From the NCBI GenBank assembly GCA_017524545.1, contig JAFXVN010000083.1, positions 36,493 through 100,492 of the forward strand: 64,000 nucleotides of DNA. Reading direction: 5' to 3'. This DNA is from Bacteroidaceae bacterium. GTDB taxonomy: Bacteria > Bacteroidota > Bacteroidia > Bacteroidales > Bacteroidaceae. The notes under the pieces are model-generated. The model had not been told where the DNA came from. It saw only the letters and a program-made list of their open reading frames with translations, and did not search any database. Positions 9,495 to 46,244 of this stretch are shown here, one piece after another. The number at the start of each line of letters is the position of its first letter. Position 1 is the stretch's first letter. Both the position numbers and the translations under genes were made by a program.

Positions 9495-10571
9495 ATGGAG
9501 AAGTTTTTGTTTTTGATGGCAGCCTTTGTGGTTGCAGTGAGCACGAAAGCGCAAAAGATTGAAGTAGTGGATAGCGACGGCGATGGCGTGCCGTATGCCT
9601 CTGTGCTGAATGCCAATGGCGAGTTCCTCGGCATAACCAGCCTCGAAGGCGTGCTTGCAGATGCAAATGGGGCGAAGTCCGTCACCATCAGCCATGTGGC
9701 TTTCAAGCCGAAGGAAGTGGCTTTGGATGGCAAGGACATGCGCGTCACCTTGGAAGATGCCGACTACTCCCTCAACGAGATTGTCATCTCGCCAAAGCCT
9801 CTTGCGTATGTACAGACCTACTACCGCGTCTTCTTTTATGACAGCAAGCACGGCATCATCTATTACCGCGCAGGCCTGACCGACAACGCCCTCGACCGCG
9901 AGACGGGCAAACTCAAGGCCAGCACTAAGCACTTCTCCACGGGCTTCAAAGGCATCATCACGAAGGTCATCAACATGGCGCTTGGCTGGGGATTCGACAT
10001 GCGCAGCAACATCAGGACTGGTAGGATTGAAGACCGTCTGGTGGAAAAGAACAAAGTGTCCCAGATGAAGATAACGCAGACCTCCCCGGGACATTGGCGC
10101 GTGAGCGACTACAAAGGCACGGTAGGCACCATCACCGACGACAAACAGACGGGCAGACGACTCTTTTCCCTCGACAGCCGCATGATTTCGCGACACAGGC
10201 TCGAAGCAAAAGGCAAGACAAAGGAGCTGGCAAAGCGCGAGAAGCACGACAAGAACACGGAGAACGAGGTGAAGTCGGAGGCACTCATCTACCAAATCGA
10301 CGAGGACGGGAACTACAGCCCCGAGGACTTTGTAATGGAGCAGTTCAACGACACCTTCGACTATGAGTTCGACGAGGAGATGCTGCACTGCATCGTCGGC
10401 TATCAGCTGTTCTCCACAGACCGCGCATACGTCACAAAGAAGGAGCTGAAGGAACGGCAAAAGGCCAACGAGATGAAGATGACATACGAGAACATCCGCC
10501 AGTTCGAGAAGCAGAACAATATCCCTCCCCTCGCGCCCGTCATCGAGCAGGCGCTCGGGAAACTTAAATGA
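9495..10571 (+). CDS. Secreted protein with carboxypeptidase-like regulatory domain
   Basis: A clear signal peptide (MEKFLFLMAAFVVAVSTKAQ) is followed by a ~75-residue beta domain (VPYASVLNANGEFLGITS, then VTISHVAFKP and LNEIVI) of the carboxypeptidase regulatory-like type, which opens many Bacteroidota TonB receptors and other surface proteins. The remaining ~250 residues are not recognised and there is no beta-barrel. The protein is probably periplasmic or attached to the outer membrane. The stop overlaps the acyltransferase start (ATGA), so the two genes are coupled. A function in envelope modification together with the acyltransferase is possible but only inferred. Confidence 0.7.
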   Translation: MEKFLFLMAAFVVAVSTKAQKIEVVDSDGDGVPYASVLNANGEFLGITSLEGVLADANGAKSVTISHVAFKPKEVALDGKDMRVTLEDADYSLNEIVISPKPLAYVQTYYRVFFYDSKHGIIYYRAGLTDNALDRETGKLKASTKHFSTGFKGIITKVINMALGWGFDMRSNIRTGRIEDRLVEKNKVSQMKITQTSPGHWRVSDYKGTVGTITDDKQTGRRLFSLDSRMISRHRLEAKGKTKELAKREKHDKNTENEVKSEALIYQIDEDGNYSPEDFVMEQFNDTFDYEFDEEMLHCIVGYQLFSTDRAYVTKKELKERQKANEMKMTYENIRQFEKQNNIPPLAPVIEQALGKLK

Positions 10572-11569
10572 CTGTTATGAACCAGAGGCGAATCATAGAG
10601 CTTGACTATCTGAAGGGAGTCCTCATTCTGCTTGTCATCGGCTTCCACTTGGTTTGGTTCGAGCAGCTGCACCCTTTCGCCAAGCAAGTGGTCTATAGCT
10701 TCCACATGCCAGGCTTCCTGCTCATGTCGGGCTACCTGATGAATGTCGGCAAGCCGCCGAAGGACTTCCTGCGGATGCTCCTGTGGCTGGCCGTGCCTTA
10801 TATCGTGATGGAGAGCGGGTACATCATCATGGCGTCCCTGCTCCCCATCAACGAGCACATCGACAGGCTCACGCCCGCAGTCTTCCTCGACCGTCTCTGC
10901 CTGCACCCCCTCGGTCCGTATTGGTACTTGCACACCTTGATTATTTGCGAAGCAATCTATTATTCAATTCATAATTCACTGTTCCTTGAATGGTTCTTGG
11001 GCATGAAGAAGATTTTCGGGTTGCTTGGGAAATGGCCTTATTTTGTTCTTGCCTATTTCGCAGTCTATTATGTGCTCGGCACCCTTCTCCCCCTAAAGGG
11101 GGTTGGGGGGGGCTTTTCCTTCTCCTCTGCCCTTTATTTCCTTGCGGGTGCAGCTATCCGCCAAAGGGGCATAGGGTTCATCGCCTTTTTCCACCCCTCA
11201 TTGCTCTCTGTCCTCGCCTTCGCCACGCTTGTCTTTTTCATAGACAGTCCCAACCAGGCAAGCTTCAGCGGAGCATTGATAGCCTACACAGCCATATCGT
11301 CCCTGCTCTTCTTGTTTAATCTTTTCACCTTTTCATCTTTTCACCTTTTCGCTTTTCTTGGCCGCAACAGCCTTGTGCTCTACATCTTCTCCCCCATCTT
11401 CACCATCCTCTGCAAGCATTTTGTCCCCTACTTGCAGTTCGACCCCACAGGCCTGCTGTTCCTGCTGGTCTCGCTCATCGTCTGCGTTGCAGGCAGCCTT
11501 GCCATAGCCTGGGCGATGGACTTCACAGGCACCTCCCGCTTCTTCTTCGGGAGGCGAGCCCTGTCTTGA
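10568..11569 (+). CDS. Acyltransferase family 3 membrane protein
   Basis: Typical opening RIIELDYLKGVLILLVIGFH, then FHMPGFLLMSGYL, and about ten hydrophobic segments identify an acyltransferase-3 family protein, which transfers acetyl or other acyl groups to envelope sugars. A second ATG at 10577 could also be the start. Two features are odd. Residues ~173-182 (LLPLKGVGGG) are encoded by a GC-rich palindromic element at 11086-11113. Two further stretches, at 10960-10982 and 11312-11352, are A/T-rich short repeats that read as hydrophobic residues (for example FNLFTFSSFHLFAF) inside membrane helices. The gene ends beside a cluster of hairpins shared with the converging dus gene. Confidence 0.85.
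   Translation: MTVMNQRRIIELDYLKGVLILLVIGFHLVWFEQLHPFAKQVVYSFHMPGFLLMSGYLMNVGKPPKDFLRMLLWLAVPYIVMESGYIIMASLLPINEHIDRLTPAVFLDRLCLHPLGPYWYLHTLIICEAIYYSIHNSLFLEWFLGMKKIFGLLGKWPYFVLAYFAVYYVLGTLLPLKGVGGGFSFSSALYFLAGAAIRQRGIGFIAFFHPSLLSVLAFATLVFFIDSPNQASFSGALIAYTAISSLLFLFNLFTFSSFHLFAFLGRNSLVLYIFSPIFTILCKHFVPYLQFDPTGLLFLLVSLIVCVAGSLAIAWAMDFTGTSRFFFGRRALS
11086..11113 (+). repeat. GC-rich palindromic element inside the acyltransferase gene
   Basis: CTCCCCCTAAAGGGGG forms a short hairpin and is followed by TTGGGGGGGC. It is one member of a family of ~30 bp elements (others at 11875, 15545, 15581, 19511, 23143, 39592, 39772, 55083 and 55199) that share a G- or C-box plus an adjacent palindrome. It is read in frame as a glycine-rich linker. 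Confidence 0.7.
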
Positions 11570-18429: not shown

Positions 18430-19052
18430 CACTCGACGAGTACATCCTCGGGCACATAGATGCCGAGGGTGACTATCTTCATGCCCTGTGGCGCGACACA
18501 CAGCTGCGCCTCTCGTACGGACAGATGGCAAGCGGTCATCTGCAAGGGCGTGTGTTGAAGATGCTCATTAGAATGACAAAGCCGCTGAAGGTGCTCGAGC
18601 TGGGCACCTTCAGCGGCTATGCTACTTTGTGTATGGCAGAGGGGCTTGAAGAGGGAGCCGAGCTGCATACCTTTGAAGTGTTTGATGAAAACGAGGACTT
18701 CCTCAGAAAATGGTTCGATGGGAGTCCCAATAAAGAAAAAATACATCTGCACATAGGCGATGCCTTGCAGCTTGTGCCTCAAATGGAGGGGCAGTGGGAC
18801 TTCGCCTTTATCGATGCCGACAAGCGCGAGTATGTGGCTTATTATGAGATGCTACTGCCGCTCATGCGTTCTGGCGGCTACATTGTGGCGGATAACACCC
18901 TGTGGTACGGTCATGTCTTGGAAGAAGCACGCGAAAGCGATGTGCAGACGCGCGGCGTGCAAGCCTTCAACGACCTTGTTGCAGCAGACAACCGTGTGGA
19001 GAAAGTCATCCTGCCTCTCCGCGACGGCCTCACCATCATCAGGGTTCTTTGA
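18426..19052 (+). CDS. SAM-dependent O-methyltransferase (caffeoyl-CoA type)
   Basis: A 208-residue class I methyltransferase with SAM-binding motif I VLELGTFSGYATL, the acidic strand HTFEVFDENE, the metal/catalytic motif FAFIDADKREY and VADNTLWYG. These match the family of small cation-dependent O-methyltransferases common in bacteria and often next to aroQ. The substrate is unknown; catechol-like hydroxyls are the family norm. Coupled to aroQ by a 4 nt overlap and ends 13 nt before the converging lipoprotein gene. Confidence 0.87.
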   Translation: MTLDEYILGHIDAEGDYLHALWRDTQLRLSYGQMASGHLQGRVLKMLIRMTKPLKVLELGTFSGYATLCMAEGLEEGAELHTFEVFDENEDFLRKWFDGSPNKEKIHLHIGDALQLVPQMEGQWDFAFIDADKREYVAYYEMLLPLMRSGGYIVADNTLWYGHVLEEARESDVQTRGVQAFNDLVAADNRVEKVILPLRDGLTIIRVL

Positions 19053-19065
19053 CGGGGGAGCTTTC

Positions 19066-19293
19066 CTACTCCTGCACCTTCTCCATTCTTCGGACTGGCG
19101 GCACTCCGTAGAGGAGTCTGATTCGGTCAACAGGCTCTTCTTTCTCGATAACTTCTGCTGGCGGAGGGCCATAAAGCACCAGCTGCTCTTCTGCCTGCTG
19201 CACGTTCTTTGCTGTCTTGCAGGAGCCGAAGCCCAGCAGGGTGATGAACGAGCCTAACAGCAGGTTCCAGAATGAATAAAACTTCTTTGCCAT
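19066..19293 (-). CDS. Small lipoprotein of a radical SAM/lipoprotein system (75 residues)
   Basis: The N-terminus is a lipoprotein signal (LLLGSFITLLGFGSC, lipid-accepting Cys 25). The mature part is ~50 residues, charged, and contains the motif LYG-x-PP twice: VLYGPPPAEV and LLYGVPPVRR. The segment LLLGSFITLLGF is identical in the neighbouring 52-residue protein at 19308. I recall a family pair in Bacteroides and Prevotella (TIGR04133 for the enzyme, TIGR04134 for the lipoprotein) described as an rSAM/lipoprotein system, and this fits it. The tyrosine, glycine or proline region may be the site changed by the radical SAM enzyme encoded upstream; this is inference. It is the last gene of the leftward operon. 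Confidence 0.75.
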   Translation of the reverse strand: MAKKFYSFWNLLLGSFITLLGFGSCKTAKNVQQAEEQLVLYGPPPAEVIEKEEPVDRIRLLYGVPPVRRMEKVQE

Positions 19294-19307
19294 AGTCGTT
19301 CTTGTTG

Positions 19308-19466
19308 TTATTTTGTACCAGAGGAAGGCTCTTGAACTGTTGTTGGAGGTGGTCCGTAAAGTACTCCTGGCTCATTTTCATCTTCCTTTGTGCATGCACT
19401 GAAGCCCAGCAGAGTAATGAACGAGCCTAAGAGCAGCCGCCAAACAGTGTTAATCTTTTTTGCCAT
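19308..19466 (-). CDS. Second small lipoprotein of the radical SAM/lipoprotein system (52 residues)
   Basis: A short frame from ATG 19466 to TAA 19308-19310 encodes 52 residues: lipoprotein signal MAKKINTVWRLLLGSFITLL then GFSAC, followed by an acidic stretch and one copy of VLYGPPPTTV. It is a clear paralogue of the 75-residue protein downstream, sharing LLLGSFITLLGF and LYGPPP, with the second motif copy missing. The two lie in tandem, 14 nt apart, directly after the radical SAM gene. Short length makes it easy to miss in automated annotation. The conserved signal and motif leave little doubt that it is a real gene. Confidence 0.8.
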   Translation of the reverse strand: MAKKINTVWRLLLGSFITLLGFSACTKEDENEPGVLYGPPPTTVQEPSSGTK

Positions 19467-19496
19467 AATATCATTTTCTATTTAATCATTTACCAT

Positions 19497-20618
19497 TTAC
19501 TGTTTCGGGCACTCCCCCAAAGGGGGAGCGGGGAGGGGGCTTCTCATCCTTTCCATGTGACACAATAGAAGCCTTCCGTCGTTGTCACGCAGATGGAGGC
19601 CGCCGCCTTCGCAGTAACGCCAATAGCGGCAGTCCTTGCAGTCGTCGCGTTTCATCCAATCGTGGTTGCGGTGCGGAAGGAAGCGATGCTCCCAGACATC
19701 CATGAAGTCGTCCTCGTAGATGTTGCCCTGCTTGTAGTTGTGGCGAATGCTGGTGCAGGCGCTGATGCTACCATCCACAAGCACCGAAGCCACCGTCACG
19801 CCTGCCGCGCAACGGAACATCCAGTCGCGCACGTCGCCCTCGTACGGCCCAAGGAAGCCTTCGCAGCCGTAGGAGGCATGAATCCTACCCTCCAGACGTG
19901 TCCGGCGGATGAAGTCGAGTAATCCCTTCAGCTGCTCGCCTGTGAGCTGAAGGTCTTTGTCCTGAGCGCCCCGCCCCACAGGGAAGATGGTCGCTAAGCG
20001 CCAGTCTGTAACGCCTTTCTCTATAAGGAAGTCCCGCAGCTGCGGCAAAGTGTTGTAGTTGTGCTGATGCACGACAGTCATCACGTCATAGGCAATCGTC
20101 CTGTCCGCCACAATCATGTCAATGGCTTGGCTTGCCATGCGGAAACAATCGGGATGGCGCCGCAGCCAGGTGTGCTGTTCTTCCAGTCCGTCGAGGCTGA
20201 CCGTAATGGAGCAGAGGCCGGCATCCTTCAGCTTTCGGAACATTTCGAGAGTAAGGTAGAGGCCGTTCGTCACCATTCCCCAGGGGAAGCCTCTGTCCGC
20301 GATGCCTTGGGCGCACTCCACCACGTCCTCCCTGACCAGCGGTTCGCCGCCACCAAGGATGATGAAGACCTCGCTGGGCTTCCTCTTCGTGGCGATGTTG
20401 TCGAGCACACGGAAGAAGTCCTCCTTAGGCATATCAAAGACCCTCTCGGGTGGGTCTTTCCGGCAGTCGCTGCCACAGTGTCGGCAGTAGATGTTGCAGC
20501 GCACCGTGCTCTCCCAAAACACCTGTCTGAGCGGATGTTCCCGTCGCAGGTTCTTGTTGAGCTGTCGTGCCGCCTCAAGTGCCAACGTCCTGCGGATGCC
20601 TAATTTCTCTGTTTTCAT
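19497..20618 (-). CDS. Radical SAM/SPASM enzyme of the rSAM/lipoprotein type
   Basis: The radical SAM cluster motif is CNIYCRHC (CxxxCxxC) at residues ~42-49, followed by GGGEPLVRED and VSLDGLEEQHTWLR. The C-terminal SPASM region has spaced cysteines (CAAGVTVASV, ACTS, CKDCRYWRYC) for extra Fe-S clusters, as in enzymes that modify peptides. The two small lipoprotein genes that follow are the likely substrates. The gene overlaps the SpoIIE-type phosphatase gene by 4 nt. The last ~15 residues (RSPLPAPPLGECPKQ) come from a GC-rich palindromic element (19511-19540) close to the stop, so the native C-terminus has been replaced or extended. The 373-residue length is otherwise normal for SPASM proteins. 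Confidence 0.87.
   Translation of the reverse strand: MKTEKLGIRRTLALEAARQLNKNLRREHPLRQVFWESTVRCNIYCRHCGSDCRKDPPERVFDMPKEDFFRVLDNIATKRKPSEVFIILGGGEPLVREDVVECAQGIADRGFPWGMVTNGLYLTLEMFRKLKDAGLCSITVSLDGLEEQHTWLRRHPDCFRMASQAIDMIVADRTIAYDVMTVVHQHNYNTLPQLRDFLIEKGVTDWRLATIFPVGRGAQDKDLQLTGEQLKGLLDFIRRTRLEGRIHASYGCEGFLGPYEGDVRDWMFRCAAGVTVASVLVDGSISACTSIRHNYKQGNIYEDDFMDVWEHRFLPHRNHDWMKRDDCKDCRYWRYCEGGGLHLRDNDGRLLLCHMERMRSPLPAPPLGECPKQ
19511..19540 (-). repeat. GC-rich palindromic element at the 3' end of the radical SAM gene
   Basis: ACTCCCCCAAAGGGGGAG followed by CGGGGAGGGGGC; same family as 11086. It supplies the terminal residues of the enzyme, 13 nt upstream of its stop. Confidence 0.72.
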
Positions 20619-22423
20619 GCCTTGCCTCCAACATCCTTTTTGAATTGTATGGCGAGCATCGTGAGGTCATCGCTCTGCTCTGCGCTGGCAACAAACTGGT
20701 GCAAAGCCTCTGTTTGAAGCTTGATGAGGGTTTCCGTGTTACAGGGTTCGCCAGTGCGGAGTGTCTGCTGTGCGGTTTTGACCATACGTTGCTTGCCAAA
20801 CTGGTCGTGCGAACGGTTCTCGGCTTCTGTCAGTCCGTCGGTGTATAGGAAGATGACGGTGCCAGGGTAGATAAGCGTTTCCTGGCCTTCGTAGTTCCAT
20901 CCCGGCATGAGACCAATGGGGATATTATTCTTGGTGGGTAACAGTCCGACGCTTTTGCCTACGAGTAGCGGCTCTTCGTGACCGGCATTGCAGTAGCGCA
21001 GCTGTCCCGTTGTGAGGTCGAGCACCCCAACAAAGAGAGTGACGAACATGTCCGACTCGTTCATGTCTGCGATTGCCTCGTTCATCGCCGTAACAATGGT
21101 TTCGGGCTGGTCTTCGTGAGCCGACACGGAACGGAAGAGGCTTCGCGTCACGGCCATCACGAGCGAGGCGGGAACGCCTTTCCCCGCCACGTCGCCTATG
21201 CAGAAGAAGAGCTTTTCGTCGCGTATGTGGAAGTCGTAGAGGTCGCCTCCGACTTCCTTCGCCGGAACGAGCAAGGCGTAGATGCCTACATCGTCTCGCT
21301 CTGGGTAGGGCGGGAAGGTCTTTGGCAACATGCTCTCTTGGATGGTTCGGGCTACACGCAGTTCGCTGTCTATGCGCTCCTTTTCGGTCGTTGCCCTCTG
21401 GAGCGAACGTGCGCTGCGGGCGGCGCGGTAGATGATATAGCCCAGCAGCACCAAGCCTGCCAGCATGAGCAGTGACAGGTAGAGGCTCACCTCTCGCAAT
21501 TCAGCATAGATTTCCCTCTTGTTGCAAACGACGGACATCGACCAGCCCGTCTCGCCATCGACAGGAGCATAGAAGACGCTGACTTCCTCGCCGCCCAAGT
21601 CTGTGATGTCCTGGTGTCCGCTCGCACCGCTCATCTGTTGCCTGTTGATGTAGCGGGTGGTGGTGTCGGTCGAGGAGGCTGTGATTTCCTGTATGGTGCT
21701 GCGCATGATGAGGCTTTCGTCGGGACCGACCATCACCTTGCCGGTGCGCGAGATGACCACGTTATAGCTGGAGGGATAGATTTGGTTGGCGTTGATGACG
21801 CTGGATAGCCAGTTGAGCGAAACGTCGGCACCAAGCAGGGCAACCGTCTCTCCCTTGCTGTCGTGCACGGGGATGGTGTAGGTGCAGAGCATCATCTTTG
21901 CCCCTGCGTTGTCGTAGTAGGGTTCGCTCCACCTGCCGCGTCCGGCGCGGATGCCATTTTGGTAGAACTCCGCCTCTAAGTAGTTGTGCGAGGCACTGCC
22001 TATCTGCGCCTCCTCTATCGTGCCGTCGGAACGTCGTGCCACGTATGGCTCGAACCAGTGTCCCTTCTGCGGATAGTAGTCGGCACGAAACATCAGTCCT
22101 GCGCCCACGATGGTTGGGTTCTGCTCCACCATCCTGCGGCATGCGGCATAGAGCGAATCTGGCTGGTCGAGGCTGCGTTCTGCCGCCCAAAGGGTGTTGC
22201 TGATGGCTGTCTCCACAGCAACCATCACCTTCTGAATCTCCAGATTCTTTACGCGCAGCTCTGTCTCGGCTCTGTGCTCCACCTCTTCGCGAATGCCCTT
22301 GCGGGCAAACATGTACTCTACGATAAAGATAAGCTCCAGCAGCACAGCTACGGTCACAATGATGGCTACGCTCGACTTGGAGCGCAATGCCTCTGGCCAA
22401 AGCTTCTTCAGGATAGTGTTCAT
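20615..22423 (-). CDS. Membrane sensor with SpoIIE-type PP2C phosphatase domain
   Basis: Residues ~18-40 and ~332-350 are membrane helices enclosing a ~290-residue periplasmic sensor region that looks like a double Cache domain (WFEPYVARRSDGTI, ALLGADVSLNWLSS). The cytoplasmic C-terminus is a PPM/SpoIIE serine phosphatase with VGGDLYDFHI, IGDVAGKGVPASLVMA, NAGHEEPLLV, LYTDGLTEAEN and EQSDDLTMLAIQF holding the metal-binding Asp residues. Such enzymes dephosphorylate STAS-domain anti-anti-sigma proteins in partner-switching cascades. The gene just upstream encodes a STAS protein, overlapping by 4 nt, so it is the obvious substrate. The signal that the sensor reads is unknown. Confidence 0.88.
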   Translation of the reverse strand: MNTILKKLWPEALRSKSSVAIIVTVAVLLELIFIVEYMFARKGIREEVEHRAETELRVKNLEIQKVMVAVETAISNTLWAAERSLDQPDSLYAACRRMVEQNPTIVGAGLMFRADYYPQKGHWFEPYVARRSDGTIEEAQIGSASHNYLEAEFYQNGIRAGRGRWSEPYYDNAGAKMMLCTYTIPVHDSKGETVALLGADVSLNWLSSVINANQIYPSSYNVVISRTGKVMVGPDESLIMRSTIQEITASSTDTTTRYINRQQMSGASGHQDITDLGGEEVSVFYAPVDGETGWSMSVVCNKREIYAELREVSLYLSLLMLAGLVLLGYIIYRAARSARSLQRATTEKERIDSELRVARTIQESMLPKTFPPYPERDDVGIYALLVPAKEVGGDLYDFHIRDEKLFFCIGDVAGKGVPASLVMAVTRSLFRSVSAHEDQPETIVTAMNEAIADMNESDMFVTLFVGVLDLTTGQLRYCNAGHEEPLLVGKSVGLLPTKNNIPIGLMPGWNYEGQETLIYPGTVIFLYTDGLTEAENRSHDQFGKQRMVKTAQQTLRTGEPCNTETLIKLQTEALHQFVASAEQSDDLTMLAIQFKKDVGGKA

Positions 22424-23670
22424 AATGTCCAGTTAGCGAACGTCTTGCAGATGTCCATAATATAGTCAAAGCGTTTGGCTATGCGTTCGCCGAACGCTGC
22501 CTGGCATTCCTGTATCACCGATTCGGGGAAAGAATCGGAGAGCGAGAGCCATGTGAAGTTCCTGACGCACGACACCACCTCTATCTGTGCCTTCCGCTCT
22601 GCAACCACATCGGCTGACAGACCCTCGAAGTAATAGTCGATTGCCCGGTTCCAAAACCTTTGTCCCAATTCTCGCGGAATGCCAATAATCTTCTCATAGT
22701 CGCCAATGAGACTCACCATCGACGAGTAGGCATGACCCAAGTCGAGCAGCGGGTGTCCGTAGCCTATCTCGCCCATGTCGATGAGCATCAGTTGGTTCTC
22801 CTGCTGGTTGTCAAACATCGCTTCGCCGCCTTGCACCATCGCGTTCTTCGTCTGCAAGTCGAGGTGGAGCAGGCGGTTCCCCTGAGGGATGCTGTCGATG
22901 ATGTGGAGCAGCATGTCGGTATGCTCCTTCGGGAAGTAGCGGCGGATGTGCTCTATCTGCTGGCGTTCGCGCTCTATGGCAGACGGCACATTACCTCCCT
23001 CGGGAACTTCTATCTGGTGCAGCTCGAAGAGGAGGTCGGCATACATCCTTGCGCAGGCATCCAGCTCTTTCGGATGCTGTTTCAGATATGTGCTCAACGT
23101 CTTAGCCTTCAGCAGTTCATAGACCAGACCGTAGCACTCACGACTCCCCTCTGTCTCCCCCGAGGGGGCAACCTTTACCACATCGAACGAGATGGCGGTG
23201 GGCATACCCAGCACGAAGGCTTCTTTCGAGAGGGTTATCTCGCGGCGCACCTCATCCATCGTGGTGCCTTCGCGAAACACCTTGATGATGGTGTCGCCGT
23301 CCAGTCTATACACCTTCCCCACGCCACCGATGCCGATAAGCCTGCAACCCTCCACGCTCAGCCTTCGCATGGCTCGCTCCACGGTCATGATTTTCGTGAA
23401 CCCTGTCGTTTCAAGTACTTCATAGACCTGCGGCTGGACATCAATCACGCGGAAACCTTTGTAGCGCTTCGCCAGCGAGAGCAGGATGCGCAGCCCCGAG
23501 CTTGAGATGTATTCCAAGCGCGAGGCATCGCAGGTTAGCAAATCAACCACGCCAATCCTGTGCAGTTCACTGTTTATCTTGGCGTTCGTTTCGGCTGATG
23601 TTGCCGTGTCCAAGCGTCCTACAAGGCGTATTGTCACCTTGCGGTCATCGTTCTCCAATTCACAAGTCAT
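22420..23670 (-). CDS. STAS domain fused to an APH/choline-kinase-like kinase
   Basis: Residues 1-~105 are a STAS (anti-sigma factor antagonist) domain with the phosphorylation-site segment EYISSSGLRIL. Residues ~110-416 are a small-molecule or protein kinase-like domain of the aminoglycoside-phosphotransferase type: GIGGVGKVYRL, catalytic HLDLQTKNAMV (HxD-x4-N) and metal-binding LIDMGEIGYG. I recall a paralogous APH-like family (TIGR02172) with this arrangement. The fusion suggests that phosphorylation state of the STAS part is set by its own kinase and reset by the SpoIIE-type phosphatase encoded next. Residues ~166-176 (APSGETEGSRE) come from a GC-rich palindromic element at 23143-23173, inserted between a conserved VVKV and CYGLVYELL. 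It is the first gene of the operon. Confidence 0.82.
   Translation of the reverse strand: MTCELENDDRKVTIRLVGRLDTATSAETNAKINSELHRIGVVDLLTCDASRLEYISSSGLRILLSLAKRYKGFRVIDVQPQVYEVLETTGFTKIMTVERAMRRLSVEGCRLIGIGGVGKVYRLDGDTIIKVFREGTTMDEVRREITLSKEAFVLGMPTAISFDVVKVAPSGETEGSRECYGLVYELLKAKTLSTYLKQHPKELDACARMYADLLFELHQIEVPEGGNVPSAIERERQQIEHIRRYFPKEHTDMLLHIIDSIPQGNRLLHLDLQTKNAMVQGGEAMFDNQQENQLMLIDMGEIGYGHPLLDLGHAYSSMVSLIGDYEKIIGIPRELGQRFWNRAIDYYFEGLSADVVAERKAQIEVVSCVRNFTWLSLSDSFPESVIQECQAAFGERIAKRFDYIMDICKTFANWTL
23143..23173 (-). repeat. GC-rich palindromic element in the STAS-kinase gene
   Basis: ACTCCCCTCTG then CTCCCCCGAGGGGGCAACC; a weaker member of the family at 11086. In frame, encoding APSGETEGSRE. 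Confidence 0.6.
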
Positions 23671-23730
23671 AGTTCAAGATTACGGAGCACCAGAAAGGCG
23701 CGGAAGTTATGATTTTGACGTTTCGTGTCG

Positions 23731-23761
23731 CAAAGTTACGATTTAGTGGGCAAAAAGCAAA
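23731..23761 (-). promoter_or_regulatory. Promoter of the STAS-kinase/phosphatase/rSAM/lipoprotein operon
   Basis: Read on the minus strand, TTTG (23758-23761), 19 nt spacer, TAACTTTG (23731-23738): a full match to the Bacteroidota housekeeping promoter. Initiation near 23724 gives a ~55 nt leader before the STAS-kinase start at 23670. The remaining gap to 23926 shows a possible stem GGCGGCA/TGCCGCC around 23850-23886 and nothing else clear. Confidence 0.8.
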
Positions 23762-23926
23762 GGAAAAGGCTGTTTTTCTTTCTTTTCCCGAAGAAAAGCA
23801 GGTTCCTTGTAGCCAAAGCCACCCCTGCAGAGCAAGCGGAAAAAACATGGCGGCAAGCCTGCCTTGATGATGCAGACCTGCCGCCAGTACCCTATAGAGG
23901 AAGACTCTTAGCCTTTTCCCCTTCGG

Positions 23927-24103
23927 CTAATCCTTGAAGGTGCTTGGTTCCCAGAACCCCTCGTCTTCATCTTCGAGGACAAATTCTTTTACGTCGCCTT
24001 CCTGACCTTCGCCGCCCTCACCAATATGCGAGCCAGCAAGAATTACTAAGGTCACTTCTGCAAAGTCTTCCTGCATGATAGGAGAAACATACTTTCGTTT
24101 CAT
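23927..24103 (-). CDS. 58-residue acidic small protein coupled to the subtilase gene
   Basis: ATG at 24103 overlaps the TGA of the giant subtilase gene (ATGA), and the frame runs to TAG at 23927-23929. The product has a short basic start (MKRKYVSPIMQEDF), a hydrophobic stretch ending VILAGS, a Gly/Glu-rich turn (GEGGEGQEG) and a very acidic tail (VLEDEDEGFWEPS). I recall many similar unnamed small proteins in Prevotella starting MK(K/R)-Y-xP and ending in acidic/aromatic tails; none has a function that I know. Overlap with the protease gene indicates co-translation. It might be an accessory, inhibitor or secreted peptide, but nothing in the sequence decides this. The stem TTAGCC/GGCTAA (23909-23931) overlaps its end and may terminate transcription. 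Confidence 0.65.
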   Translation of the reverse strand: MKRKYVSPIMQEDFAEVTLVILAGSHIGEGGEGQEGDVKEFVLEDEDEGFWEPSTFKD

Positions 24104-27100
24104 TTTACAATCACTTTTTTACCGTTAACTATATAAATTCCATGTCTCATGTTTTGCTGGTTTGCTTTTCGACCACCGAGGTCATAACAGTCAGCATTTG
24201 CAGATTTACCATCTACCATTTCATCCAGACTCGTTTCTTCATCTTCGCCTATTACCATCAGCTTCACTTCCGCAGGATTAGGAACCGAGGCGTATGGATT
24301 ATCCTCACGATCCTCGATTGTAAAATAACAGCGGAAAGAAACAAGGTTTTGACCGGGCAGCTGTCTGGAATACTTGCCTCCGCTCAGGGCATAGATGTTC
24401 TGCTCTTCTTCCGTGATGGATCTGCGTATATTGTTGCCAAAGAAGGTAATTTTCTTTTCTGCAGAGAGCACATAGAAACTGTTCATTTCTGCAGCTTTCA
24501 GTATAGCACCTGTTTGTGTAATTATCTGTGGATTTGTACTATTTGCGACCTTGGCCTGTACGCAGTACGGCGTGTTAGCTTTCACGACATCCCCTTCTTT
24601 CATGCGAACAACAGTGATATAGAAGCCACCATCCTCCTCCGTGTAGGTTCCTGCAAACTTGGCGAAAGCAAAGTGCTCCATCAACTCGCTTGTCAATGTC
24701 ACGTCAAACGGCACATACCAAGCCTGCCAGTTCGTGTTTTTGAATATGCGGGAATAGTGCAGTGTCTCTACATTCTTATCGCGACTGTTGCTATAATCTT
24801 CACCATCAATAAGAGTCAGTTCTAACACAGGTGTTGGTTCGCTGCCTTCATATTCCAGCCAATTGCTTCCGTCATAATAAAGAGGTTTCCATCCTTTTGA
24901 CTTTGCTGAGGCAACTTGCTCAGTGTCCATTACATTATGTTCGTTCTCGTTGTAAATGACGTATAAATTCGAGTTACTTACAACAGGCAGACTCTCAACC
25001 AAAGCATCCATACTCGCATCTTTGACCTGATTTTGGAAAAATGCCAACAATGTAAGTGCGGAACATCCTGACACATCAAGTTCTGTCAGCAGGTTGTTAT
25101 AGCAGCTTATCACATTCAGTGCAGTATTCTTTGACACATCAAGCATGGTCAGTTGATTGTCGTAACAATACAGATGTGTCAGAGCCGTATTATTTGATAT
25201 GTCAAGCATCGTCAGTTGGTTGTCATTGCATCCCAAATAAGTGAGTGCTGCATTTTGCAGGACGTCGAGTTCCTGAAGAGGGTTGTTTTGACAGCGCAAT
25301 TCTTTCAATGCTGTGTTGTTTGACAAATCAAGCGTTGTTAATTGGTTTTCATAGCATCGCAAATACTGTAACTTTGTATTCTTCGATACGTTGAGCGTAG
25401 TTAACCTGTTAGAACCACAGTTAAACCAACTTAGTTCCGTATTCTTTGATACGTCAACTGCATCCAATTGGTTTATGCTGCACCCTAATGTTGTCAATGC
25501 TATATTCTTAGACACATCAAGTGCAGTAAGTTGATTGTCATAACAATAAAGTACTGTCAGTGCCGTAAAGAACTCTATGCCCTTCAAGTCTTGGATATTA
25601 TTGCTGTGCACGTCAATTTCTTTGACAGCCGCAATTTCCTCATCCGTCAACACACCATCATCACCATATAATTGGCCGAGCAGCCAATTGCGGAAGTTCG
25701 CATCTGGGAAGTTTGTGGCATTGATAGCAATGCCAGTTGCTGGTGTCGATTCTCCAAACACCATTCGAACTGCCGGACGGTTTGTCGAAGCGGTGTAACT
25801 ATAAGTGTTTGTCACATCACCATAGCCTGTAGTGCTATCGCTCCTGCGATAAAGCGTATAGCCATTACCACTATTATAATAGTAGTATTTAAGGCCACTC
25901 TTATAATCGTCGCTCTTTCTTGTTACAACAACCACAAGATTGTCCGTGCCATTATATGTAAAGGTGCCCTGATTGAACGTCAGTGTCTCCCAGCCTGTCA
26001 TTTGTCCTAATGTCGGTGAGCCGGAATATACCAGCGTAAGATTGCCGCTTGGAACATAATCGGATGTGCTGGAGAAGTTCCCAGATTTGTGCCCTAAATA
26101 AACTTTCAACTCTGAAGTGGCATAGGACGTGCTACTTGCCACCTTAAATGCAATGCTGCTTATCGTGCCGCCCTTGCCTATTTCCGTCGGGGTGTAGAGC
26201 ATCTGTGTAGTTGAATATCGGTAGAAGTTATTGTATGGCACATTATAACCGGTGCTGTCTGCTTTTGCATCAATAGTCAGCGTGTTACCAGACCAAATCC
26301 CTGGCTCCAATGAGGTCGATCCTCCAAACACCAGTCGAATTGCTGGACGGTTTGTCGAAGTTTTATAATTATATGATATGTTTGTCACATCACCATAGCC
26401 TGTAGAACTATCGCTCCTACGATGGAGCGTATAGCCATCTCCACTATTATAATAGTAGTATTTGAGACCACCTTTATAATTATCACTCTTTCTTGTTACA
26501 ACGACCACAAGATTTTCCGTGCCATTATAAGTAAAGGTACCCTGATTGAATGTCAGCGTCTCCCAGCCTGTGGTTTGTCCTAATGTCGGTGAGCCTGAAT
26601 AAACCAGTGTAAGGTCACTGCTGCTGACATAATCGGATGTGCTGGAGAAGTTTCCGGATTTGTGCCCTAAATAAACCTTCAACTCTGAAGTGGTAAAAGA
26701 CGTGCTGCTTGCCACCTTAAATGCAATACTGCTTATCGTACCGCCCTTGCCTATTTCCACTGGGGTGTAGAGCATCTGTGACGTTGAATACTGGTAATAG
26801 TTGTTGTATGGCACATTATTACCAATGCTGTCTGCTTTTGCATCAATAGTCAGCGTGTTACCAGACCAGATCCCTGGCTCCAATGAAGTCGATCCTCCAA
26901 ACACCATTCGAACTGCTGGACGGTTTGTCGAAGCGCTATAATTATAAAATGTGTTTGTCACGTCACCATAGCCTGTATCGTTATCGCTCCAGCGGTAAAG
27001 CGTATAGCCATCACCACTGCTATAATAGTAGTATTTAAGTCCACTTTTAAAACTGGTGCTCTTTCTTGTTACAACAACCACAAGATTGTCCGTACCATTA

Positions 27101-29610
27101 TAAGTAAATGTGCCATGATTGAACTCCAGCGTCTCCCAGCCTGTCGTTTGTCCTAATGTTGGTGAGCCGGAATAAACCAGTGTAAGATTACTACTTGTGA
27201 CATAATCGGATGTACTGGAGAAGCTTCCGGATTTGTGCCCTAAATAAACTTTCACCTCTGAAGTGGCAAAGGAGGTGCTGTTTGCCACCTTAAATGCAAT
27301 ACTGCTTATCGTTCCGCCCTTGCCTATTTCTGCTGGGGTGTAGAGCATCTGAGTTGTTGAATACTGGTAATAATTTCCATAGGGAACAGTATAGCCAATG
27401 CTACTGGCTCCTGCATCAATCGTCAGCGTGTTACCAGACCAGGTTCCTGGCTCAACTTGAGTGCCTGATGTGCCAAGGATATATTGAATGCCTGCCAAAG
27501 CATCTATCTTTCCATTGCCGAAGCGCGAAGCATAGGTTCCGTTGGTGTAGCTGTCGGTGATAGCGGTCTGTGCCATGATAGTTTTAACATCGTTCACTGT
27601 TAAGCTTTTGTTCACGGATTTTGCAGCCTGTAGCCATTGTGCCACAATGCCTGCAGCCACAGGCGTTGCCATTGATGTACCTTCCATCATGGCGTATGGA
27701 GAGTTACTATTATTAACGACAAGGTCAGAAGTGCCATAGTAGCTATAGTCATCCACAGATGTATTGTGGTAGTGGTTCACGCCCGCAGCAAGGCGTGCCC
27801 CTGGAGCAGTAATCCAGGGATACGCTTGTCCCGTTGGACTTTGTGCAGCTGTGGCATAACTTGAGAAGTAGGCAATATCCCCCATCGTGTAGATGTCGGA
27901 GGCAGAGTTATTGGTGCCCGAAGATGCTTTCCAGTTTGTTTTTGAGACATAAGCTCCCACAGAGATAGCATTAGGGATGGTGGCTTGGACGCTCACACAC
28001 ATGTCATCAGTGCCAGCCGTCCAGGTGTGTCCCGAAGTCGTCAGATGGTTGGAGAAGTATGTGAAGTCGTTCATTCCCGACATATTAACGCTGGCACTGC
28101 CGCTGGCCGGATAAACTTCAATAGCAAGTGTGTATGCACTTTTGTAGTATGTTGTGCTGTTTTTTGTGGAAGTTGAATAGTTTTTGGATAATAGTCCATC
28201 ATCTGTATAAGCATAGATGCAGTAATTTTCATTATCCCACCAAGCCTTTATTATGTTTAATGTCCCGTCGTAATAGGTGTCCAATCCAGAAAAAGATGAA
28301 GTACTTGAAGTGACCGTCCAAGATTTCAAAATTGCACCTGTTGAATTGTTCAGTACATGTATCTTACAATTTAGTTCCTCTGTTGAAAAGGTCATGGAAA
28401 TATCACCCGGATAGTAGAAACCGGCATCCGTATTGGGATAGGTGTTAGAGCGCAGGATAGTGCCAAGGGGACTGGAACTGCTGGCAGAACTCTTCTTCAC
28501 AAAGAAGCCTCCACCCTCATTGTCTTTGCTATGTCCGGCATCGTTTGATGAGGCAAAGAGGATGATGTGTCCTGGATGGCTTTCGCCAAAGTATTGCCCT
28601 ACCAAGTCTGCCCATTCGCCTGTGCCGTTGTGGGGTCCCCAGTGTGACCCCCAGCTGTTGCTTACGACCAACGGCTTACCCTGGACATCGGCGTATGAGA
28701 CCATTTTTTTCAAAGCATTAGCAAGATAAGTGTTGTACAAACCCTTTACACCAGCCAGATAGAGATCAGCTCCAGGAGCCATGCCGCCGTAAGTAGCATT
28801 GGCATGATTGTCGGTGACAGTAACATTCGTACCGCTTACAACAACGCTCGAGCCGCCAGCGGTCGAGGCGCAATGTGTACCGTGGTCTGCCGCCTTATCA
28901 TCGGTCGTCGGCGACGTGTTTGTAATGGTTGTGTATTCGGTTTCACTTGAACCGTCATAGACGTATGCGCGCTTGATGCGGCTATTACCATTTTTGTCCT
29001 TAAATGCAATATGCTGGAAGTCAATGCCGTTGTCGATGACACCGAGCACCACACCTGTGCCGTCGAACTTGGTGGTAATGCCTGCAGCAGTGGCATCAGT
29101 TGACAGCTTGAGCAAATCATCCACATTGGTTTTCTGACGTGCAGCATCGGTCAGCGGACGCATCACCTGTGCCACCTTGATGCGAGTGACATTGTCAATG
29201 TCAGCCAGTTTCTCCAACTGCTTCACTGGTACTTTGGCTGTAACGAAATCCAGCCCGTCGAACGTCTCTTCCACTTCAACGCCAAGCGAACGCATGGCAC
29301 TTAGGTTGTTTACGTCTTTCAGATGGATGAAACATGAGATGTACGCCACGCCGCCTACCGTGTCGGGACTGGCTATCAGAGACTGGGGCTTCTGTTTCAT
29401 CATTTTCTCAGACAACTTGAGTCCTTTGATGTGTCGGGGACTTGTCGTTGGCTTTTCTACCTTTTTTTTCTGTTCATTTAAGAACCTTTGAGTTGTTAAA
29501 GCAAACTTTTCGTTCACCTCCTGTGCCCACAGCATAATAGAGGATACAGTAAACATAAATAGCAGAGTTATCGCCTTTAGATAAAAACTCCGCATAGGCA
29601 ACTGTTTCAT
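24100..29610 (-). CDS. Giant secreted subtilase (S8) with adhesin-like repeats, leucine-rich repeats and T9SS-like tail
   Basis: Residue numbers count from a TTG at 29634, but ATG 29610 (MKQLPMRSFYLKA) is the likelier start, followed by a signal peptide ending MLWAQ. The subtilase domain has all three catalytic motifs: VIDNGID (D201), DHGTHCAS (H251) and EGTSMATP (Ser near 650). Three ~192-residue repeats follow (about 727-1296), each opening EPG-WSGNTLTID and including VYLGHKSG. A run of ~22-residue leucine-rich repeats with the core LTxLDVSKNTAL follows (~1330-1530), then a beta domain and the tail YDLGGRK...HGIYIVNGKKV, like type IX secretion signals. A surface-attached protease that binds other molecules is the likely role. 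The gene is read from a strong promoter at 29964 through a structured leader. Confidence 0.87.
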   Translation of the reverse strand: MKQLPMRSFYLKAITLLFMFTVSSIMLWAQEVNEKFALTTQRFLNEQKKKVEKPTTSPRHIKGLKLSEKMMKQKPQSLIASPDTVGGVAYISCFIHLKDVNNLSAMRSLGVEVEETFDGLDFVTAKVPVKQLEKLADIDNVTRIKVAQVMRPLTDAARQKTNVDDLLKLSTDATAAGITTKFDGTGVVLGVIDNGIDFQHIAFKDKNGNSRIKRAYVYDGSSETEYTTITNTSPTTDDKAADHGTHCASTAGGSSVVVSGTNVTVTDNHANATYGGMAPGADLYLAGVKGLYNTYLANALKKMVSYADVQGKPLVVSNSWGSHWGPHNGTGEWADLVGQYFGESHPGHIILFASSNDAGHSKDNEGGGFFVKKSSASSSSPLGTILRSNTYPNTDAGFYYPGDISMTFSTEELNCKIHVLNNSTGAILKSWTVTSSTSSFSGLDTYYDGTLNIIKAWWDNENYCIYAYTDDGLLSKNYSTSTKNSTTYYKSAYTLAIEVYPASGSASVNMSGMNDFTYFSNHLTTSGHTWTAGTDDMCVSVQATIPNAISVGAYVSKTNWKASSGTNNSASDIYTMGDIAYFSSYATAAQSPTGQAYPWITAPGARLAAGVNHYHNTSVDDYSYYGTSDLVVNNSNSPYAMMEGTSMATPVAAGIVAQWLQAAKSVNKSLTVNDVKTIMAQTAITDSYTNGTYASRFGNGKIDALAGIQYILGTSGTQVEPGTWSGNTLTIDAGASSIGYTVPYGNYYQYSTTQMLYTPAEIGKGGTISSIAFKVANSTSFATSEVKVYLGHKSGSFSSTSDYVTSSNLTLVYSGSPTLGQTTGWETLEFNHGTFTYNGTDNLVVVVTRKSTSFKSGLKYYYYSSGDGYTLYRWSDNDTGYGDVTNTFYNYSASTNRPAVRMVFGGSTSLEPGIWSGNTLTIDAKADSIGNNVPYNNYYQYSTSQMLYTPVEIGKGGTISSIAFKVASSTSFTTSELKVYLGHKSGNFSSTSDYVSSSDLTLVYSGSPTLGQTTGWETLTFNQGTFTYNGTENLVVVVTRKSDNYKGGLKYYYYNSGDGYTLHRRSDSSTGYGDVTNISYNYKTSTNRPAIRLVFGGSTSLEPGIWSGNTLTIDAKADSTGYNVPYNNFYRYSTTQMLYTPTEIGKGGTISSIAFKVASSTSYATSELKVYLGHKSGNFSSTSDYVPSGNLTLVYSGSPTLGQMTGWETLTFNQGTFTYNGTDNLVVVVTRKSDDYKSGLKYYYYNSGNGYTLYRRSDSTTGYGDVTNTYSYTASTNRPAVRMVFGESTPATGIAINATNFPDANFRNWLLGQLYGDDGVLTDEEIAAVKEIDVHSNNIQDLKGIEFFTALTVLYCYDNQLTALDVSKNIALTTLGCSINQLDAVDVSKNTELSWFNCGSNRLTTLNVSKNTKLQYLRCYENQLTTLDLSNNTALKELRCQNNPLQELDVLQNAALTYLGCNDNQLTMLDISNNTALTHLYCYDNQLTMLDVSKNTALNVISCYNNLLTELDVSGCSALTLLAFFQNQVKDASMDALVESLPVVSNSNLYVIYNENEHNVMDTEQVASAKSKGWKPLYYDGSNWLEYEGSEPTPVLELTLIDGEDYSNSRDKNVETLHYSRIFKNTNWQAWYVPFDVTLTSELMEHFAFAKFAGTYTEEDGGFYITVVRMKEGDVVKANTPYCVQAKVANSTNPQIITQTGAILKAAEMNSFYVLSAEKKITFFGNNIRRSITEEEQNIYALSGGKYSRQLPGQNLVSFRCYFTIEDREDNPYASVPNPAEVKLMVIGEDEETSLDEMVDGKSANADCYDLGGRKANQQNMRHGIYIVNGKKVIVK
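25740..27465 (-). repeat. Three ~576 bp direct repeats inside the subtilase gene
   Basis: Units begin near 27465, 26890 and 26310 (reading leftward) and each encodes the same ~192-residue module. The second and third are closest to each other (shared IDAKADS), so the expansion looks stepwise. Their length and similarity make copy-number change by recombination likely and could hinder assembly. Confidence 0.85.
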
Positions 29611-29689
29611 ACAATAATGTTTTTCTGCCTGCAAACACCCCGAATTCGGCCATTAGTAATTTGTGATTTGTTCGTACAGATATACAAAA

Positions 29690-45812: not shown

Positions 45813-46244
45813 TTATGAGATTTCGATGGCCTTGTTGAGCTTCTTCACTTCCTTTTCCATCTTCGGCATGGTGACGGTCAGGATGCCGTCCTCGACCTTA
45901 GCGGAGATTTTGTCGCGCTCCACATCGTCGGGCAGCGTGTAGCTCTGTTCGTAGTTCGAGTACGAGAACTCGCGGCGCAGATAGTGGTGGCCCTTGTCCT
46001 CATGCTTGTGTTCGCATTTGTTCTCGATGGCGATGGTAAGGTTGCCTTCGTCGTTGATGCTTACGCGGCAGTACTCCTTCTTGATGCCCGGAGCCGCAAG
46101 CTCCATCGTGTAGGCTGTCTCGCTCTCCTTGACGTTCACTGCCGGTGCTGTGCTGTTTGCACGAGGCATGAAATCGGTGTTCAGGAAATCCTCAAACAAT
46201 GTTGGCATCCAACTGTTCTTAAACATTACTGGTAACATAATCAT
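45813..46244 (-). CDS. Small heat-shock protein (Hsp20/alpha-crystallin family)
   Basis: 143 residues with the alpha-crystallin core: APAVNVKESETAYTMELAAPGIKKE, then YLRREFSYSNYEQSYTLPDDV and AKVEDGILTVTMPK, ending with a short C-terminal tail. Such proteins form oligomers that hold unfolded proteins during heat or other stress. A start at ATG 46238 is equally possible. It stands alone with a strong terminator downstream; no heat-shock promoter is obvious in the 190 nt upstream, which hold GACAAACG-type repeats. Confidence 0.94.
   Translation of the reverse strand: MIMLPVMFKNSWMPTLFEDFLNTDFMPRANSTAPAVNVKESETAYTMELAAPGIKKEYCRVSINDEGNLTIAIENKCEHKHEDKGHHYLRREFSYSNYEQSYTLPDDVERDKISAKVEDGILTVTMPKMEKEVKKLNKAIEIS

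Follow-up and report, generated by a model that had tools for sequence, protein, structure and literature searches.

The operon examined here, which lies on a 64,000-nt stretch of a rumen-Prevotella-like genome (hereafter, the window), is real and is built of recognisable parts, joined by an unusual junction that we encountered twice, once without the SpoIIE gene. We think it reasonably probable that two independent modules, a variant partner switch containing a STAS-kinase fusion and, downstream of it, a radical SAM/lipoprotein module, came to share this operon through a lineage-limited rearrangement; for the junction considered by itself, an origin by such a rearrangement of two modules appears quite likely. 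A previous, sequence-only reading of the same DNA had interpreted the five genes as one regulatory system. Its identification of the parts and of the one-operon layout is upheld by our analysis, but the conserved regulatory link between the two halves is not.

The locus resides on contig C32 of an assembly of 85 contigs. All five genes, as well as one promoter of the Bacteroidetes type, are located on the minus strand:

23731..23761, minus strand: Bacteroidetes-type promoter, TTTG-N19-TAACTTTG, upstream of the STAS-kinase gene
22420..23670, minus strand: STAS-kinase, a STAS domain fused to an APH/TIGR02172-like kinase, 416 aa (PF01740 and PF01636 over cut-off)
20615..22423, minus strand: dCache-SpoIIE, a membrane dCache sensor with a SpoIIE-type PP2C phosphatase, 602 aa (PF07228, PF22673, PF02743)
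19497..20618, minus strand: radical SAM/SPASM enzyme, TIGR04133 (rSAM_w_lipo), 373 aa (over cut-off)
19308..19466, minus strand: lipoprotein 1, 52 aa, lipobox LGFSAC, one LYGPPP (TIGR04134, 16.0 bits, sub-cut-off)
19066..19293, minus strand: lipoprotein 2, 75 aa, lipobox LGFGSC, LYGPPP and LYGVPP (TIGR04134, 15.8 bits, sub-cut-off)

The promoter contains the sole minus-strand TAnnTTTG within positions 18,900-24,200, the STAS-kinase and SpoIIE genes overlap by a 4-nt ATGA, as do the SpoIIE and radical SAM genes, and both lipoproteins carry the LYG-x-PP motif, all in agreement with what had been proposed. A single transcript across the five genes is predicted from this layout, and, because both junctions are tight 4-nt overlaps, co-expression of the switch and radical SAM genes is possible in the window lineage. 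The promoter core represents a class (TCGTAnCTTTGCGAC, at most one mismatch) with 20 occurrences in the genome, versus 0 for the reversed control. Just upstream of the promoter, a 58-aa ORF at 23927-24103 (minus strand; MKRKYVSPIMQEDFAEV...), with a LAGS stretch and an acidic tail, may encode a small secreted or precursor-like peptide, and positions 24100-29634 (minus strand) encode a protein of 1844 aa that combines a subtilase domain (PF00082) with leucine-rich repeats.

Both domains of the STAS-kinase score over their cut-offs (37.2 bits for STAS, 43.7 bits for APH), and the protein matches TIGR02172 at 89.1 bits, below the curated cut-off of 228.2. Across 31 aligned homologues, the truncated L184 being left out, the kinase residues Lys130, His269, Asn276 and Asp298 are invariant, and so is Ser57 of the STAS motif YISSSGLR, which we take to be the phosphorylated residue by analogy with SpoIIAA; Asp271 of the kinase is kept in 30 of the 31 homologues and replaced by Asn in L233. 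For the kinase half, searches for a solved relative, made with a profile and with the single sequence, returned STAS structures and, otherwise, chance-level matches. When up to four candidates per genome were scored in a sample of 395 genomes from one phylum, some members of the family included, a full-length match was obtained only in the window genome, the matches elsewhere being of STAS length. The STAS-APH fusion therefore looks confined to the window's family, as far as searched. Our search of the non-subscription literature found no paper on such a fusion, and none appears in the available part of an article on prokaryotic kinase architectures (PMC1262709).

The protein encoded by the second gene combines a SpoIIE-type phosphatase (PF07228, 159.9 bits), for which the best solved match is Rv1364c (3ke6, E 2.4e-16), with a sensor (PF22673, 69.5 bits; dCache_1, PF02743, 50.3 bits), for which the nearest solved structures are sensor/chemoreceptor domains such as 3lic and PctA; it has no HATPase domain. 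The parts expected of a partner switch are thus present as far as the STAS domain and the sensor-bearing phosphatase are concerned, but the kinase is APH-like rather than an RsbW/SpoIIAB-type HATPase, and a whole-genome search with PF13581 located no such HATPase on contig C32. Consequently, the earlier description of the switch as complete-looking is misleading. The two PF13581 matches in the window genome, on contigs C39 and C65, are both in frames that also contain SpoIIE; these regions (G000:C39:46978-49742 and G000:C65:12775-15098) are further partner-switch loci, in which a SpoIIE-HATPase fusion sits beside a separate STAS gene.

STAS-kinases were found in 42 genomes (11 relatives and 32 family genomes, two being shared, plus L055), and their neighbourhoods were compared at 32 loci, ten others, all from a distant group (34-42% identity), being left out. 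SpoIIE is encoded directly downstream of the STAS-kinase at 12 of the 32 loci (one truncated), a SpoIIE-HATPase fusion is found at six (five within 300 nt, one at 1.5 kb), and a stand-alone RsbW-like HATPase lies directly upstream at six, five of which also have the downstream SpoIIE. Altogether, an RsbW-like HATPase adjoins the STAS-kinase or is fused to SpoIIE at 12/32 loci; at one locus a HATPase and a STAS gene lie 1.5-1.9 kb away on the opposite strand, and 12 loci show no switch gene within 5 kb, with L184 and L230 located on contigs of ~4 kb. SpoIIE without either a separate or a fused HATPase characterises seven loci (the window, L175, L176, L177, L178, L181 and L217). The PF13581 matches in six of the corresponding genomes fall in frames that also hold SpoIIE; for the seventh (G251), this is suggested by the frame length of 733 only. 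Of the 42 genomes, 37 were searched in full with PF13581, and in 17 of these a HATPase_c_2 match exceeding the cut-off is found no more than 5 kb from the STAS-kinase. All seven stand-alone HATPases of the nearer set (15 genomes) are located at a STAS-kinase, and many of those in the more distant set (21 genomes) lie away from one, so that the tie between the HATPase and the STAS-kinase is strong mainly in the nearer relatives. The STAS and kinase residues are intact whether or not a HATPase lies next door. At eight loci unlinked to radical SAM (L175-L178, L181, L214, L216 and L217), SpoIIE keeps 76-85% conservation in its sensor half, suggesting that the signal has been kept without a link to this enzyme.

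The radical SAM enzyme matches TIGR04133 at 526.9 bits (curated cut-off 425), carries the CxxxCxxC motif at Cys41/45/48 and contains PF04055 (68.3 bits) and SPASM (PF13186, 31.7 bits) domains, both over cut-off, whereas the scores of the two lipoproteins miss the TIGR04134 cut-off of 39.8 bits. The pairing of such enzymes with lipoproteins is already known from the NCBIfam family names and is said to have been described by Haft and Basu in 2011; our search of non-subscription papers found none on TIGR04133/TIGR04134. Around the radical SAM gene of 82 entries, up to a distance of 2.5 kb, we collected ORFs with a lipobox, demanding LG in the signal peptide, leaving YGxP optional and removing chance-looking frames with six typed strings. 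This yielded 68 distinct lipoprotein candidates in 63 entries; the remaining 19, some cut by contig ends, gave none. YGxP is found behind the lipobox cysteine in 58 of the 68 (200 shuffling runs: mean 1.07, maximum 5) and Tyr followed by Gly or Ala in all 68 (shuffles: mean 24.8, maximum 34/69), and retaining the dropped frames changed these figures to 58/70 and 69/70, respectively, all of them counts over related and hence non-independent sequences. Given that Tyr-Gly-x-Pro is kept while the lipoproteins vary widely beyond it, the motif is the best guess for the modified site. The enzyme itself probably modifies small surface lipoproteins.

The two halves of the operon are seldom found together. 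Among 61 relatives, the STAS-kinase is present in 11 (E < 1e-100), TIGR04133 over cut-off in 22 and both in nine; among 399 genomes of the family, the respective numbers are 32 (E <= 1e-30), 116 (E <= 1e-80) and 12, a co-presence at the chance level (Fisher p = 0.31). Since two genomes are common to both sets, 19 genomes have both genes, which share a contig in the window's own genome and lie on different contigs in the other 18, in a count made mostly on drafts, where contig ends may conceal a case, and on the first few candidates scored per genome. A scan of contigs gave 60 named radical SAM loci, one of them (L114) an unrelated fragment; 50 of the 59 others have at least 2 kb of upstream sequence, and the STAS-kinase is next to the radical SAM gene at one of these 50, L055, there without SpoIIE. 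No STAS-kinase is included in any of 24 larger stretches taken from relatives at the enzyme gene or fragments of it, some of these stretches being cut by contig ends. Neither conserved adjacency of the halves, the check named for the earlier proposal, nor the control of radical modification by the switch that it inferred is borne out by these counts; separation of the halves in relatives is what that proposal had itself set as a refutation. STAS control of the radical chemistry in the window lineage is possible, with nothing conserved in the sequences to support it. With the junction present in just two of the examined genomes, a recent rearrangement is the more likely interpretation, rather than an established regulatory system.

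In L055, a separately published sheep-rumen genome, the stop codon of the STAS-kinase gene overlaps the radical SAM start by a 4-nt ATGA and no SpoIIE gene intervenes; the best SpoIIE matches lie at two other places in the genome, each directly followed by a HATPase match. Identity to the L055 counterpart is 91% for the window's radical SAM protein and, for its STAS-kinase, 79% in BLAST or 83% over gap-free alignment positions. The STAS-kinase tree does not join the two, and their joining is not rejected (AU p = 0.18); a single origin is accordingly not proven. Many close relatives share a neighbourhood of radical SAM, lipoprotein, O-methyltransferase (on the other strand) and XerD genes, often after a gene that we named Hsp20-like by eye, without the switch, and some relatives have other neighbours around the radical SAM gene. 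In the window (9495-11569 and 45813-46244), the segment that runs from W11 (11686) up to the Hsp20-like gene seems, by comparison with L055, to lie inverted beside W10. The window also has ~22 kb between the STAS-kinase and Hsp20-like genes, including the subtilase/leucine-rich repeat gene, which are missing at that place in L055.

The promoter of the radical SAM gene was traced in 19 of the 21 entries with at least 78% identity, besides L055, two pairs of which represent one genome from two sources. TAnnTTTG is found at -12 from the radical SAM start codon in 13 of the 19 (12 of 17 distinct), one entry has it at -21 and five have it at neither position. No such box occurs within 200 nt before the radical SAM start in the window or L055. 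Because the box stands at -12 in most close relatives and in neither of these two, the gene's own promoter was probably replaced in the window. In the 13 loci (L039-L046, L059, L061-L063 and L099), only 4 nt separate the box from the start codon, a spacing which suggests that the transcripts of these genes are leaderless or nearly so. A candidate reading identifies the window promoter with the former promoter of the radical SAM gene, behind which the switch would have been inserted. A 28-nt stretch indeed matches the radical SAM promoter and start codon of L061 at 93%, but the STAS-kinase genes in L175 and L178 have similar promoters too, and the genome holds 20 near-copies of the core.

In the two-module account that we favour, the first module would be a variant partner switch, in which the periplasmic dCache domain sets the activity of the SpoIIE-type phosphatase, the latter dephosphorylates Ser57 of the STAS domain, and the state of STAS turns the fused APH-like kinase on or off. 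In many relatives, Ser57 would be phosphorylated by an RsbW-like HATPase, either stand-alone or joined to SpoIIE, and in the window by the fused kinase or by one of the two SpoIIE-HATPase fusions encoded elsewhere in the genome. The assignment of the kinase as the output of the switch is tentative, with chances that we put slightly short of even: with a HATPase close by, a kinase that served its fused STAS alone would be superfluous, and, since its residues are equally conserved next to a HATPase, the domain probably does more than phosphorylate STAS. Within the second module, the radical SAM/SPASM enzyme would modify the small lipoproteins, most likely at Tyr-Gly-x-Pro. The STAS-kinase/SpoIIE pair would then have come to sit directly upstream of the second module, and the promoter that belonged to this module, near-leaderless in most close relatives, would have been lost, so that the module would be co-transcribed and translationally coupled with the switch. 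The rearrangement reading is supported by the separateness of the modules (1/19 genomes and 1/50 loci), by the switch-free neighbourhood of the radical SAM genes in many close relatives, by the box at -12 that most of these relatives have and the window and L055 lack, and by the SpoIIE and HATPase partners of STAS-kinases, which make the switch a unit of its own. Against it stand the 12 of 32 STAS-kinase loci devoid of switch genes within 5 kb and the many stand-alone HATPases that, in the more distant genomes, lie away from a STAS-kinase. Moreover, the same 4-nt ATGA overlap in the window and L055 despite different upstream genes is tidier than a random insertion would be and could mean selection for coupling, and, a single origin being neither shown nor rejected, two independent insertions are possible and would favour a functional link.

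The latter considerations are pertinent to the original proposal, whereby an external signal, acting through dCache-SpoIIE and STAS phosphorylation, controls radical lipoprotein modification as an adaptation of the window lineage. The single promoter with the 4-nt overlaps, the recurrence of the STAS-kinase/radical SAM overlap in L055 and the absence of a promoter box proper to the radical SAM gene in both genomes are consistent with it; however, the separation of the genes in the other 18 genomes, the L055 locus devoid of SpoIIE and the conservation of the sensor half at the eight unlinked loci make it distinctly unlikely. The five-gene adjacency could also be an assembly artefact, and the 85 contigs of the window genome, along with the apparent inversion and added genes relative to L055, could be viewed in this light; yet the same overlap and downstream neighbourhood in the independent L055 genome, albeit without SpoIIE, render an artefact highly improbable.

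A different alternative concerns the switch itself: the fused APH-like kinase could be the STAS kinase proper, replacing a lost RsbW-like HATPase, with the free STAS targeting a protein elsewhere. The seven loci that have SpoIIE but no HATPase, whether separate or fused, the association of PF13581 with SpoIIE frames in six of those genomes, extended to G251 by frame length, and the intact catalytic residues of the kinase are all compatible with such a replacement, but loci with a HATPase conserve these residues just as well, and we regard the replacement as rather unlikely. More speculatively, a dCache-gated SpoIIE and an RsbW-like HATPase might toggle the cis-fused STAS-kinase, thereby switching a phosphotransferase and not a sigma factor, and one sub-lineage might have lost the HATPase, its kinase taking over STAS phosphorylation, and captured the radical SAM/lipoprotein operon. 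This scenario, to which we assign a low probability, would, if true, define a kind of partner switch so far found only in the window's family and place radical modification of surface lipoproteins under the same signal as the switch.

With the halves almost always apart in the genomes examined, the five-gene operon is a poor guide to what regulates the radical SAM/lipoprotein family. Of more general bearing is the STAS-APH kinase fusion, often accompanied by HATPase and SpoIIE partners, the output of which may be a phosphotransferase. In turn, Tyr-Gly-x-Pro, kept across very different lipoproteins beside TIGR04133, points to the residues to be inspected for modification.

The SpoIIAA/SpoIIAB/SpoIIE and RsbV/RsbW/RsbU systems are partner switches, which the window locus resembles in having a STAS domain with a conserved serine and a SpoIIE-type phosphatase with a sensor, but from which it differs by the STAS-APH fusion and by the lack of a HATPase and, in the operon, of a sigma factor. 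SpoIIAA is treated in PMC8256260. Rv1364c is similar in its SpoIIE half, whereas the STAS partner in the window bears an APH-like kinase. The same feature sets the window apart from SiaA-type phosphatases, the SiaA model matching the SpoIIE half at 56 bits, short of its cut-off of 700 bits; the SiaA phosphatase is part of the known SiaABCD system. Among APH-like phosphotransferases, including TIGR02172, the kinase half is related through PF01636 (over cut-off) and the TIGR02172 match at 89 bits, but the protein remains below the 228 cut-off and is fused to STAS. Finally, the downstream genes correspond to the TIGR04133/TIGR04134 pair of Bacteroidota in the enzyme scoring over cut-off, the adjoining small lipoprotein genes and Tyr-Gly-x-Pro after the lipobox, and are distinguished from it by short, repeat-motif lipoproteins below the TIGR04134 cut-off and by their position behind a partner-switch gene.
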